Of a stretch of 64,000 nucleotides of DNA, positions 35,299 through 40,222 are shown piece by piece. A model generated the notes under the pieces. The model did not search any database. It saw only the letters and a list, made by a program, of their open reading frames with translations, and had not been told where the DNA came from. This DNA is from Hyphomicrobiales bacterium (GTDB lineage Bacteria; Pseudomonadota; Alphaproteobacteria; Rhizobiales; Methyloligellaceae), in contig JAJFHN010000010.1 in NCBI GenBank assembly GCA_021775595.1, forward strand, positions 1 to 64,000, read 5' to 3'. Every line of letters begins with the position of its first letter. Position 1 is the first letter of the stretch. A program made the translations under genes and the position numbers.

Positions 35299-36990
35299 TT
35301 AATAGGAAGCGGAAATGAGTTCGTCAAACTCTTGCGAGGTCTGCGACCGGTGCGAGACGCCGAGCAAGGTGGCGGCGCGCTCGATGAATCGGCGCGCTGT
35401 CGGCGCGGCGTTGACACCCGCGGTGGCGCGATTTTGCGTCTCTTCGACGCGCTGGGGCTCATCGAGCATAACCAGAATGACGTATTTGGGCTCATCAGCG
35501 GGAAAGACGCCGATAAACGACGTCAGCAGTTGATCGCGGCTGTAACGCCCATTGACGACCTTCTCAGCCGTGCCTGTCTTACCGCCAACGCGAAAGCCCT
35601 TGGCGTCGGCCTGGCGCGCGGTGCCGCTTTCCACATTGAGGCGCATAAGGCCTCGCATTTGCTTGCTGGTGCGTTCACTCACGACGCGTTCGGCATAGGG
35701 CACGCGGCCGGGCTTCTTCTTCAAGAAGGTGGGCGTCACTTCATAGCCGCCGTTCATCAGCGCAGCGGCGCCGGCGGCGACATGGAGCGGTGTGACGGAG
35801 AGCCCATGACCGAAGGCAATGGTCATCGTGTTGATCTTCTGCCAATTGGCCGGAACGATCGGATGAGCGGTCTCACCCAATTCCGTTTCGATGCGCTGCA
35901 GCATTCCGAGCTTGCTGAGAAATGCCTTGTGGCGGGCAATGCCGATATCAAGCGCAAGCTTGGCGGTGCCGATGTTGGACGAGTAAGTGAAAATCTCTGG
36001 GACGGTCAGCCAGCGGCGCTGGGCGTGGAAGTCTTTGATGGTGAAGGACGCGATGCGAATGGGCTCGGTTGCGTCGTACTTGCTCTCCATGCCGGCCACG
36101 CCCAAATCGAGTGCCGCGGCCGTGGTGAAAATCTTGAACACCGATCCCATTTCGAACAGACCGGCCGTCAAGCGATTGAAGCGCCCCTTGTCCTGGGCCT
36201 GGCTGCGCTGATTGGGATCGAAGTCGGGAAGCGAACTGATCGCCAGAACCTCACCGCTCATGACGTCCATCACCAGACCCATCGCCGCTTGCGCCTGGTA
36301 GCGTTTGATCGCGTCCTCCAGCTCCTCGCGCAAGGCGTGCTGTACGCCGAGGTCGATCGACAATTCGATCTTGGGTTCGCTCGCTTGGCGGGCGCCGGAG
36401 GAGACCATCATCATGTTGAGCGAACGGTCGATATATCGCTCCATCCCCGCCAGACCCAGATTGTCGATGTCCACGAAACCAAGAACATGCGCCGCCGTGC
36501 GTCCGGCCGGATAAACGCGGTGGTGCTCATCGACAAAGGCTACGCCCGGCAAGCCCAATTCGTGGATGTCGGCCTGTTGGCGTGGCGAGAGCTCGCGCTC
36601 GATCCAGGCAAACCTGCCGCCGCCGCGAAGACGGCGGAGCAGCGCCTTGGTGTTGAGATGAGGCATGACATTCGACAATTGATCGACGACGTCATCCAAA
36701 TCGGTGATCGATTGGGGGTCGGCATAGAGCGAGGCGGCCTGAATGTCGGTCGCCAAAATACGTCCCTTGCGATCGACCATGGTGGGCCGATGCAACGCCG
36801 TGCTGACCGGCAAGGCCTCCAAATTATCACCGCCGCCGGTTGCCATGAAGCCGAATGAAGCGAGCCGCCCGGCCACGACCGCGAACACCACCGCAAAGCA
36901 CAATGCCATCAAGGCAAAGCGGCCGGTTTGCGCGCTCGTCGTCGACCGATAAATACCGGTCTTCGAAATGATCTCTAATAAACGCTTCAT
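35299..36990 (-). CDS. ftsI: Septal peptidoglycan transpeptidase FtsI (PBP3)
   Basis: This class B penicillin-binding protein crosslinks septal peptidoglycan alongside FtsW. It has 563 aa. A cytoplasmic N-terminus and one membrane anchor lie at about 25-48, followed by the pedestal domain (VDRKGRILATD) and the transpeptidase domain with SVFK (nucleophile S283), SSN at 337-339 and KTG at 471-473. A TTG at 36996 is in frame two codons before the ATG at 36990; the ATG is chosen. No clear ribosome site is seen. Confidence 0.97.
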   Translation of the reverse strand: MKRLLEIISKTGIYRSTTSAQTGRFALMALCFAVVFAVVAGRLASFGFMATGGGDNLEALPVSTALHRPTMVDRKGRILATDIQAASLYADPQSITDLDDVVDQLSNVMPHLNTKALLRRLRGGGRFAWIERELSPRQQADIHELGLPGVAFVDEHHRVYPAGRTAAHVLGFVDIDNLGLAGMERYIDRSLNMMMVSSGARQASEPKIELSIDLGVQHALREELEDAIKRYQAQAAMGLVMDVMSGEVLAISSLPDFDPNQRSQAQDKGRFNRLTAGLFEMGSVFKIFTTAAALDLGVAGMESKYDATEPIRIASFTIKDFHAQRRWLTVPEIFTYSSNIGTAKLALDIGIARHKAFLSKLGMLQRIETELGETAHPIVPANWQKINTMTIAFGHGLSVTPLHVAAGAAALMNGGYEVTPTFLKKKPGRVPYAERVVSERTSKQMRGLMRLNVESGTARQADAKGFRVGGKTGTAEKVVNGRYSRDQLLTSFIGVFPADEPKYVILVMLDEPQRVEETQNRATAGVNAAPTARRFIERAATLLGVSHRSQTSQEFDELISASY

Positions 36991-37034
36991 TTTCAACGTT
37001 CTACCGTTCTCGCTCGCTCGATCCGATGTGGCGT

Positions 37035-37292
37035 TTAGTCGTCGGTTGAAATCTGATTGCCTTGGATGGGCCGCAGGCCAAGATGGGCGCGCGCCAACCG
37101 TTCAAGCCGAGCCGGCCGATTGAGATGGCTCCATTCGGCGCGCAGAATAGCGATCACGTCGCGCTCTTCGGCGATGCCCCGCTGCAATGACGCGACGCGA
37201 TTGTCGAGACTGCGCGTCTCGTATTTCACCTGATAAATGACGGCGGCAAGTGCGACGAGAATGGTTGCCAGAAAGAATGTGACGATACGCAT
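37035..37292 (-). CDS. ftsL: Cell division protein FtsL
   Basis: This is an 85-aa bitopic protein: an N-terminal membrane span (residues 4-20, VTFFLATILVALAAVIY) followed by a short coiled-coil and ERLARAHLGLRPIQGNQ. FtsL forms the FtsQLB subcomplex that activates FtsWI. Sequence conservation in the family is low. The call rests on topology, size, the RLARAHLGLRP-type end and the position between rsmH and ftsI. Confidence 0.9.
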   Translation of the reverse strand: MRIVTFFLATILVALAAVIYQVKYETRSLDNRVASLQRGIAEERDVIAILRAEWSHLNRPARLERLARAHLGLRPIQGNQISTDD

Positions 37293-37310: not shown

Positions 37311-38348
37311 TCAGGTTGCCGATCCGGCAACCAGCGGCAGGCCAATGTCTTGGGTTGCGGGCGATAGGGGCGGCGAGGCTGTGCGCTCCGCGGCGCGCAA
37401 ACGGGCAGAGCGTGCACGCGGATTGCGCGCGGTCTCTTGGGGCGCGGGGCGCAAGGGACGGCGATTGATCAAACGAAACGAGGGCAGCGAGGCCGGTTTA
37501 TCTATCGGCGGTCGATGGCGCGAGGGCCCAGGCGCGGGCTTGGCGCAGTAATTGAGAAAGCGCTTGGCGATGCGATCTTCGAGGGAATGGAAGGTCACAA
37601 CCACCAAGCGCCCTTCAGCCCGCAACAGCCGCTCGGATGCGAGCAGACCGTTGGCCAATTCCAAGAGTTCATTGTTGACGTAGAGCCTGAGCGCCTGAAA
37701 CGTGCGCGTCGCTGGATGCTTGGCCGAACCGGGGCGGCGCCCGAGCACGCCTGAGACCAAATCGGCAAGTTGGCTTGTGCGTTCAAACGGTTCGCTCGCC
37801 CGCGCGCCTACGATTGCGCGAGCGATCGCGCGGGCCCGCCGCTCTTCGCCGAACACGGCGATGATTTGAGCCAGGTCGTCTTCGCTCAGAGAATTGACGG
37901 CATCGGCTGCGCTTTCTCCCTCGCCCGACATCCGCATATCGAGCGGACCGTCGGTCTGAAAAGAAAAGCCGCGCTCGGGCGTGTCGAGTTGCATGGAGGA
38001 GACGCCAAGATCAAGCGCAATGCCGTCAACGCTCTCGATGTCATGGCGGGCAGCAATGGTTTCCATTTCGGCAAACGAGCCTTGCGCGAAGCGCAAACGA
38101 CCGTCGAATCTGCGCGCGAGCGATGCACCGGCGGCGATGGCTGAGGGATCGCGGTCGACGGCGATGACAATGCAGTCGGCTGCCTCAAGCAAGGCCTGTG
38201 AATAGCCGCCCGCGCCAAATGTGCCGTCTAGATAAACGCCGCCGTCCTTGGGCGCGATGGCCTCAAGCGCCTCAGAAAGTAGGACGGGAATGTGGCGGGC
38301 TGGTCCGCCAGCGGCACCCGATCGTGTCGTGCCGCGGCCCGCCGTCAT
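37311..38348 (-). CDS. rsmH: 16S rRNA (cytosine-1402-N4)-methyltransferase RsmH (MraW)
   Basis: This SAM-dependent enzyme methylates C1402 in the ribosomal decoding centre. It has 345 aa. The SAM motif is GGVYLDGTFGAGGYSQALLE; other RsmH landmarks are ALDLGVSSMQLDTPERGFSF, EERRARAIARAIV and VVTFHSLEDRIAKRFL. The start overlaps the mraZ stop by 4 nt (ATGA). The C-terminal region is Arg- and Pro-rich. Confidence 0.97.
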   Translation of the reverse strand: MTAGRGTTRSGAAGGPARHIPVLLSEALEAIAPKDGGVYLDGTFGAGGYSQALLEAADCIVIAVDRDPSAIAAGASLARRFDGRLRFAQGSFAEMETIAARHDIESVDGIALDLGVSSMQLDTPERGFSFQTDGPLDMRMSGEGESAADAVNSLSEDDLAQIIAVFGEERRARAIARAIVGARASEPFERTSQLADLVSGVLGRRPGSAKHPATRTFQALRLYVNNELLELANGLLASERLLRAEGRLVVVTFHSLEDRIAKRFLNYCAKPAPGPSRHRPPIDKPASLPSFRLINRRPLRPAPQETARNPRARSARLRAAERTASPPLSPATQDIGLPLVAGSAT

Positions 38349-38827
38349 TCCCGTCCCCCCTCTGCAGTGCCGCTTTCACGGCCCCCCGCGCCGAGCAATT
38401 TTTTGAGCTTAGAAAGCTTTTCACGTCCCTGAGCGAATTCGGCCTCAAAGCGCGAGGGCTCCCAAATTTGAAACTTGCCGCCAAGACCAACAAAGGTGAC
38501 GCGGTTGGCGATGCCGGCGTAGTCGCGCAGCCGTTCGGGCAGCACGATGCGGCCGTCTTGGTCGAGGCTGATGATTTCGCTGGCGCCAAACAACGCCATA
38601 GCGAGGTGATCGCGCTCATCGGAATAGGGCGCAAGCGCTTCGAGAAGATTTTGGATTTTATCGACGAGACGTTGTCCGCCCGCATCGAGCGCGTCGTCGT
38701 CCAATGATGGATAGCAGTAAATGCCCTCGAGCCCGTCTTTGGCGAGAACATTGCGGAAAGAAACCGGAACAGATACACGCCCCTTGGCGTCGATCTTGTT
38801 TGTGAATGTGGAGACAAACTGATCCAT
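38345..38827 (-). CDS. mraZ: Transcriptional regulator MraZ
   Basis: MraZ is an AbrB-like (double SpoVT-AbrB) DNA-binding protein that controls its own division and cell-wall operon. It has 160 aa from the ATG at 38827, preceded by an AGGGGGAG purine run. An in-frame GTG at 38842 is the other possible start. The first swapped-hairpin domain shows STFTNKIDAKGRVSVPVSFR; the second shows SLDQDGRIVLPERLRDYAG. It is the first gene of the cluster. Its predicted target, an array of TGGGN-type repeats with 10-bp spacing, lies about 170-245 bp upstream. Confidence 0.96.
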   Translation of the reverse strand: MDQFVSTFTNKIDAKGRVSVPVSFRNVLAKDGLEGIYCYPSLDDDALDAGGQRLVDKIQNLLEALAPYSDERDHLAMALFGASEIISLDQDGRIVLPERLRDYAGIANRVTFVGLGGKFQIWEPSRFEAEFAQGREKLSKLKKLLGAGGRESGTAEGGRE

Positions 38828-38914
38828 CTCCCCCTCTCGCACCCTGCTGCTACGCGATCACTAGTTGCCGCCAGTGCGGCCTGACGCTGTACCGCTCTCT
38901 CATCGGATGGTGCC

Positions 38915-38977
38915 GGGGAGAGGCGGGCTGACGCTCCCGTGGCCTCAGAGCAGCGATGCCTCAAAAGACCTCTCCCC
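38915..38977 (-). promoter_or_regulatory. Structured leader hairpin in the mraZ 5' UTR
   Basis: A perfect 9-bp complementarity joins 38915-38923 (GGGGAGAGG on the plus strand) and 38969-38977 (CCTCTCCCC). Inside it, GCTG+CTC (38927-38930, 38934-38936) pairs with GAGCAGC (38948-38954), leaving a 3-nt bulge and an 11-nt loop. If transcription starts near 39002 as the promoter suggests, this element lies in the mRNA leader, between operator and mraZ. No known RNA family is recognised. Confidence 0.45.
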
Positions 38978-38997
38978 AAGTGGCCCCATTTTCCGAA

Positions 38998-39072
38998 CGG
39001 GTAAAAATGGGATATCATGGGATTTTATGGGCGTCAATGGAAACAGTAGGGATTTGCGGGTTGATAGCGGGT
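38998..39072. promoter_or_regulatory. MraZ-box-like operator: GG(G) elements in strict 10-bp phase
   Basis: On the plus strand, pentamers spaced exactly 10 bp apart read CGGGT (38998), TGGGA (39008), TGGGA (39018), TGGGC (39028), TGGAA (39038), AGGGA (39048), GGGTT (39058) and CGGGT (39068). The known E. coli MraZ operator is a set of TGGGN direct repeats with 5-nt spacers, so three consecutive copies match exactly and the others are degenerate. The array covers the predicted dcw promoter and lies upstream of mraZ, fitting autorepression. Confidence 0.75.
39009..39037 (-). promoter_or_regulatory. Predicted sigma-70-type promoter of the mraZ/dcw operon
   Basis: On the minus strand a -35 box TTGACG (39037-39032) and a -10-like TATCCC (39014-39009) are separated by 17 nt. 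Each box overlaps a repeat of the MraZ-type array. The -35 is strong and the -10 is poor, as often in alphaproteobacteria. The predicted transcript would start near 39002, leaving a leader of about 175 nt before the mraZ ATG. Confidence 0.5.
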
Positions 39073-39298: not shown

Positions 39299-40222
39299 AT
39301 GAAGACGAAGCTCATAGTGGCAGCAGCGATGTGCGCGCTGGCGATCGGCGCCTGCGCCCGGATCGCTGATCCGCCGCCGCAGCAGGCAAATCAATTCACC
39401 AACGTCGCAGGCAGCGCCGCGCCCATCAAGTTGGCTTACCGGGACGAGGGCAAAGGGTCGCCGCTGCTGATGCTGCATGGCTTTGGCGCCAACATTTATA
39501 CTTGGCGCAGTATCGAACCGGCGCTTGCCAAGCACCACCGGGTGATATCGGTCGACCTCAAGGGCTTTGGCCAATCGGACAAACCGTTTGACGATCAGTA
39601 TTCGGTGTTCGACCAAGCCAAGCTGATTGGCGATTTCATCGTGTCGAAAAACTTGAGGAATTTGACCGTGGTCGGCCATTCCTTCGGTGGCGGCGTTGCC
39701 CTATTGCTGGCAATGGACGAGCGTCCGCAGCTCAAGCGGCGCATCAAACGCCTGGTGTTGATCGACACCATCGCCTATCCGCAAAAAATTCCGGTTTTCT
39801 TCAAGATCCTGCGCACGCCCGTGGCCAATCATGTGAGCACGCGCGTGACGCCGCCCTACGTGCAAGCGCGCACAGCGCTCCGCATCGCCTACTACAATGA
39901 CGACATGATCAGCTTCCAGGACGTCGCCGCCTATGCGCAGCCACTGACCACGCCAGGCGGCAAACACGCGCTGATCGAGACGGCCAAGAGCATCGATCTC
40001 GACGATTTCAAAACGGTCACCGAGGGCTATGGCTCGATCAAGCAACCGGCGCTTATTATTTGGTGCGAACACGACAAGGTCGTGCCCGAAGCCGTTGGCC
40101 GCAAGCTGCACGCCACCATGCCGCGCTCGACGTTTCGCCAGATGAAGAATTGCGGGCACCTGCCGCAGGAAGAAAAACCGGAAGAGACGGCAAGCGCGAT
40201 CCTGGCTTTTCTGCAGCGTTGA
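39299..40222 (+). CDS. Alpha/beta hydrolase, predicted lipoprotein
   Basis: This is a 307-aa serine hydrolase of the alpha/beta fold with an N-terminal export signal. The N-terminus MKTKLIVAAAMCALAIGAC looks like a lipoprotein signal peptide with Cys19 as the acylation site. The oxyanion region is LLMLHGFGAN, the nucleophile elbow is VVGHSFGGG, the acid is in CEHDKVVPE and the catalytic His in NCGHLPQEE. The substrate is unknown; the fold includes esterases, epoxide hydrolases and haloalkane dehalogenases. It is divergent from the mraZ operon and convergent with rnpB. A GGA element sits a few bases before the ATG. Confidence 0.85.
   Translation: MKTKLIVAAAMCALAIGACARIADPPPQQANQFTNVAGSAAPIKLAYRDEGKGSPLLMLHGFGANIYTWRSIEPALAKHHRVISVDLKGFGQSDKPFDDQYSVFDQAKLIGDFIVSKNLRNLTVVGHSFGGGVALLLAMDERPQLKRRIKRLVLIDTIAYPQKIPVFFKILRTPVANHVSTRVTPPYVQARTALRIAYYNDDMISFQDVAAYAQPLTTPGGKHALIETAKSIDLDDFKTVTEGYGSIKQPALIIWCEHDKVVPEAVGRKLHATMPRSTFRQMKNCGHLPQEEKPEETASAILAFLQR

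Follow-up and report, generated by a model that had tools for sequence, protein, structure and literature searches.

Few bacterial division regulators are as conserved as MraZ, and yet its sites have been described in only a handful of species. Eraso et al. are said to have found in 2014 that the operator of the Escherichia coli mraZ promoter (PmraZ) consists of three TGGGN repeats with 5-nt spacers. The E. coli mraZ upstream sequence carries GTGGG at 10-bp steps. The MraZ protein of Burkholderia cenocepacia binds four repeats of 7 nt each, separated by 3-nt spacers (PMC7761207), and in mycoplasma AAAGTG[T/G] repeat boxes and repression of the dcw cluster by MraZ have been reported (PMC8475190). 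The Protein Data Bank entry 9sz7 is titled as a MraZ complex with a "4 box promoter". In a literature search with most subscription papers outside its scope, no study of MraZ sites in Alphaproteobacteria was found, and neither were binding or expression data for an alphaproteobacterial MraZ.

The locus considered here lies in a 64-kb window (the whole stretch of DNA that was analyzed, 64,000 nucleotides) from a Hyphomicrobiales bacterium. The genes of its dcw cluster are as follows.

38348..38827, minus strand: mraZ, 160 aa, transcriptional repressor of the dcw cluster (Pfam PF02381, E 4.9e-17)
37311..38348, minus strand: rsmH (mraW), the next dcw gene (TIGR00006, E 1.6e-88)
37035..37292, minus strand: ftsL (NF049847, E 2e-28)
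35299..36996, minus strand: ftsI-like transpeptidase gene of the dcw cluster (PF00905, E 1.5e-55; PF03717)

The PF02381 match of the mraZ product is above the model cut-off, and its score against the NCBIfam MraZ model NF001477 (E 1.4e-47, 161.5 bits) sits at the cut-off of 162. Its predicted fold, of middling confidence (pLDDT 62), matches the MraZ structures 1n0e, 9qlg and 9sz7 with Z scores of 9.4-10.2. By profile and predicted fold, the window protein is MraZ.

An in-phase array over the predicted mraZ promoter

Upstream of mraZ, pentamers taken in 10-bp steps from 38998 to 39068 read CGGGT, TGGGA, TGGGA, TGGGC, TGGAA, AGGGA, GGGTT and CGGGT. The preliminary description of this DNA had claimed eight GG(G) elements in exact 10-bp phase, and all eight were found at the coordinates it gave. 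GG falls in one phase in 8 of 8 pentamers; the GGG of the seventh element (39058-39060) is 1 base out, lying 9 bp from one neighbor and 11 bp from the other, and GG alone is in phase there. Since mraZ is on the minus strand, the box on the coding strand is CCCAT, the reverse of the E. coli TGGG. This gene orientation was absent from the preliminary description. The boxes were named A (38997-39001) to H (39067-39071), counting outward from mraZ, and are listed below together with the predicted promoter elements.

38997..39001, minus strand: box A, CCCGT, at the downstream end of the array, close to the predicted start of transcription and within the longer conserved CCCGTTCGG
39007..39011, minus strand: box B, CCCAT, its CCC overlapping the last three bases of the -10
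39009..39014, minus strand: -10-like TATCCC, separated from the -35 by 17 bp and preceded by TG as in an extended -10
39017..39021, minus strand: box C, CCCAT, within the spacer of the promoter, where its T and the next G form the extended -10 TG
39027..39031, minus strand: box D, CCCAT, immediately after the -35
39032..39037, minus strand: putative -35 element TTGACG of the mraZ/dcw promoter, with TTGAC columns 76-97% conserved in 159 alphaproteobacterial regions
39037..39041, minus strand: box E, TCCAT, immediately before the -35, with a one-base overlap
39047..39051, minus strand: box F, CCCTA, upstream of the -35, a family-level extension
39056..39060, minus strand: element G, CCCGC, 1 base off phase and poorly conserved
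39067..39071, minus strand: box H, CCCGC, outermost and family-level, overlapped by TTAACC in the window and some relatives

With at least three directly repeated TGG(G) cores, 10 bp apart, as the requirement, the locus has five core boxes plus F and H. The array is the sole period-10 run of more than four elements on either strand of the 64-kb window, and among 100 first-order Markov sequences of this length the longest in-phase run was 6, with none of at least 8. Matches to TGGGN6TGGG across the whole window were not above chance; exact CCAT-N6-CCAT-N6-CCAT triples occur in the home genome in this array only. The upstream region of a divergent alpha/beta hydrolase gene (39299-40222, plus strand) borders the array on its far side.

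Measured from the mraZ start, the array lies 170-245 bp upstream and spans conserved -35 and -10 sequences. In 159 upstream regions, the columns outside the boxes that are conserved fall in two places: TTGAC follows box E directly, and a G (82%) and TAT (87-90%) stand between boxes C and B. The placement of a -35 and a -10 inside the array, and of the array on the mraZ promoter, was rightly anticipated by the preliminary description. From this conservation we infer a promoter of the form TTGACG-17 bp-TATCCC, in which TATCCC is a poor sigma-70 hexamer; a plain sigma-70 scan found no promoter at the locus on account of this -10. The CCC of the -10 comes from box B, so that a repressor and RNA polymerase would contend for these positions. 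A transcript beginning near 39001-39003, as predicted, would have a leader of about 175 nt, and published start sites place the mraZ leader at no more than 70 nt in Caulobacter and at 170 nt in Sinorhizobium meliloti (PMC5089854). At the predicted transcript start, CCCGTTCGG (38993-39001, minus strand, containing box A) is invariant in the family; it exceeds the needs of a box and may also serve the 5' end of the transcript.

Compared with the E. coli operator, the likeness put forward in the preliminary description extends to the spacing and the array, namely a TGGG core repeated directly every 10 bp ahead of mraZ, the first dcw gene, but not to orientation and placement. In the present array the boxes are reversed, reading CCCAT on the coding strand and having A rather than G before TGGG, and they run from the -35 to the start site at about 170-245 bp from the start codon, covering the predicted -35 and -10, whereas those of E. 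coli lie downstream of the promoter and within about 45 bp of the start codon. In place of three repeats there are five core boxes and up to three more. The B. cenocepacia site shares the tandem repeats at 10-bp steps, and a fragment carrying it is bound by MraZ in gel shift, but its four repeats lie downstream of the -10 over the start site. The mycoplasma boxes and the complexes 9sz7 and 9r4j likewise present arrayed boxes, there read by oligomeric MraZ in a solved four-box complex; their box sequence is different, and the structure spans four boxes compared with the five to eight found here.

Conservation of the boxes and their association with mraZ

In total, 224 mraZ loci were gathered from the same family, order and class and from beta- and gammaproteobacteria, including E. 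coli K-12. The alignment register was set on the -35 and boxes B-E, and 26 distinct family sequences and 134 other alphaproteobacterial sequences were compared. Box B, scored as at least four of five matches to CCCAT, is conserved in 96% of the family and 96% of the class; the values are 100% and 97% for box C, 100% and 93% for box D and 88% and 75% for box E, percentages that are partly built in since B-E served as anchors. Outside this anchoring lie A, F and H. The CCC of box A is found in 100% of the family sequences and 54% of the other Alphaproteobacteria, and that of box F in 73% and 9%, respectively, over an off-phase background of 1.5-1.6%. Box H has its CCC at offset -31 in 38% and at -32 in 50% of the family (88% with a 1-bp shift), compared with 1% and 10% of the class. 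Boxes F and H are a family trait, essentially absent (about 10% or less) at class level. The preliminary description had set beforehand that a lack of conservation of the outer repeats in relatives would refute its reading; within the family, two of the three outer elements, F and H, are conserved, against refutation, and element G is not, its CCC occurring at this phase in 23% of the family; element G is probably incidental.

A chain count free of anchors gave 4-6 boxes in most Alphaproteobacteria and mostly 5-8 in family members, with Markov controls in the same count mostly reaching 1-2. The beta- and gammaproteobacteria have mostly 3-5 boxes in the opposite orientation, which is that of E. 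coli, and throughout Alphaproteobacteria the boxes are reversed relative to E. coli with respect to the gene. The period does extend beyond three repeats in the mraZ upstream regions of relatives, usually to 4-6 boxes in Alphaproteobacteria. The "enlarged operator" of the preliminary description is accordingly longer than the three TGGGN of E. coli, but it is the norm in Alphaproteobacteria and nothing special to this genome. One alphaproteobacterial locus (L224, family f68) shows no more than a degraded array, some 300 bp upstream of mraZ, and may be laid out as in Rhodobacteraceae, with a long leader.

The runs of G in the array could be taken to form a G-quadruplex controlling the promoter, as proposed for mraZ of Staphylococcus aureus, where a quadruplex downstream of the mraZ promoter has been reported (PMC11796246). 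With loops of 7 nt between them, the first four GGG runs conform to the canonical G3N1-7 motif, as do 91 of 159 alphaproteobacterial regions. The other 68 regions, however, have the array without the motif, and two-G boxes stay in phase. Boxes B-D also keep CCA (97-100%) and the following T, with the outer C of the run less well kept (76-87%), a pattern that suits reading by a protein. We consider a quadruplex very unlikely.

The association of the array with mraZ was examined in 199 order-level genomes, of which 139 have mraZ and 60 have none detectable. The search pattern was TTGAC-N2-CCAT-N6-CCAT-N6-CCA with one mismatch allowed, and nearness of matches to mraZ was judged by eye from coordinates. 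The pattern adjoins mraZ in 113 of the 139 mraZ-bearing genomes, and the 60 genomes without mraZ hold six stray one-mismatch matches in total; the genomes are related and not independent, so that the Fisher value for this association overstates its significance. A control pattern with 9-bp spacing gave scattered matches and no excess with mraZ (56 in genomes with the gene, 24 in those without). In 26 of the 139 genomes the strict pattern is missing beside mraZ, some of these having a 1-bp shift between the -35 and the first box. In the 60 of 199 genomes without detectable mraZ the box array is absent as well, which is consistent with joint loss.

Short runs phased at 10 bp can bend DNA, and this general bending signal is the ground on which the phased G-runs might be regarded as a feature of composition or curvature without a specific reader. 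The exact letters of the boxes, the tie to mraZ and the lack of any such array elsewhere in the genome argue against this explanation, already disfavored by the co-occurrence with mraZ, and we give it hardly any credence, the least of the explanations considered.

A hairpin in the mraZ leader

The 5' leader of mraZ holds a hairpin at window 38912-38980 on the minus strand. Its outer stem is long and its loop reads AGGCCAC, with a G in front in nearly all sequences. The hairpin is conserved throughout the family and in a few further Hyphomicrobiales. Across 12 sequences, 97% of cells pair, a percentage that leans towards structure as the arms were put in register by hand, and both sides have changed in 10 of 17 pairs; no shuffle or slid register comes near. 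The covariation was missed by automatic alignment and is visible only with the stem arms in register. Applied with strict filters to 61 relatives, a covariance model located the hairpin in 20, each time once and next to mraZ, and it matched the window itself with E 0.008. Taken by itself, the window leader has a minimum-energy fold no better than shuffles (z 0.01). Rfam returned no family match for the hairpin at the mraZ leader locus.

A run of 4-7 T comes after the stem in several Methyloceanibacter-type relatives but not in the window copy. The T-run after the stem resembles an intrinsic terminator and recalls UpsM of Rhodobacteraceae. As here, the UpsM leader upstream of mraZ in Rhodobacter sphaeroides is long and structured, with a hairpin (in UpsM, a hairpin/terminator), but UpsM is reported as confined to Rhodobacteraceae, and the likeness concerns the leader RNA and not the operator (PMC5089854). 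Five loci (L021, L022, L023, L024 and L025) have a longer version of the hairpin, about 155-270 bases upstream of mraZ, with a 17-bp outer stem GGGGAAGCTGGTTTGCA/TGTAAACCAGCTTCCCC around GTGAGGCCACA.

A putative MraZ operator of Alphaproteobacteria

Judged from sequence and its conservation, the array is very probably an operator that lies within the promoter of the mraZ-rsmH-ftsL-ftsI (dcw) operon, serves autorepression by MraZ and is extended upstream at family level. The inner five elements almost certainly make up a putative MraZ autorepression site that is common across Alphaproteobacteria. MraZ would repress its own operon through an oligomer lying along A-E, each monomer of which would read one CCCAT/ATGGG box on the same helix face in 10-bp steps. 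Bound in this way, MraZ would cover the -35, the spacer, the -10 and the start site and would block RNA polymerase. Boxes A-E would be the core common to Alphaproteobacteria, with F and H lengthening the site upstream in the family.

It may instead be that MraZ reads the core A-E only, and that F and H are part of an upstream promoter element or serve another regulator, for example CtrA, with a TTAACC half-site at H. Both boxes are nearly absent at class level, TTAACC overlaps H in 8 of 25 family sequences, and CtrA motifs upstream of mraZ have been reported in S. meliloti (PMC3616915). H partly coincides with TTAACC and could be a CtrA half-site in some relatives. Methyloceanibacter-type relatives, however, keep H as CCCAT, CCCGT or CCCAC without TTAA and in continuation of the 10-bp phase, and box F lacks TTAA. 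Searches for GANTC and TTAA gave no class-wide co-conserved site distinguishable from the overlap of box E and the -35. We regard a separate reader of F and H as possible rather than probable.

If MraZ does read the outer boxes, F and H may add affinity or occupancy steps, and one may speculate that they lengthen the contact or seat a second oligomer. By pure inference, several MraZ rings might wrap the DNA and give graded control, as the preliminary description had imagined. We think it rather unlikely that the full combination holds, that is, a distinct alphaproteobacterial operator, reversed and within the promoter, in which five core boxes (seven or eight in this family) would be read by two cooperative oligomers with stepwise repression, and the conserved and so far undescribed leader hairpin would act as a second, RNA-level control.

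Such a sharply defined site, class-wide and different in orientation, promoter overlap and box number, would yield immediate predictions for MraZ of Caulobacter, the rhizobia and their relatives, and the natural variants of 4 to 8 boxes would allow a test of how many boxes are read per MraZ oligomer.
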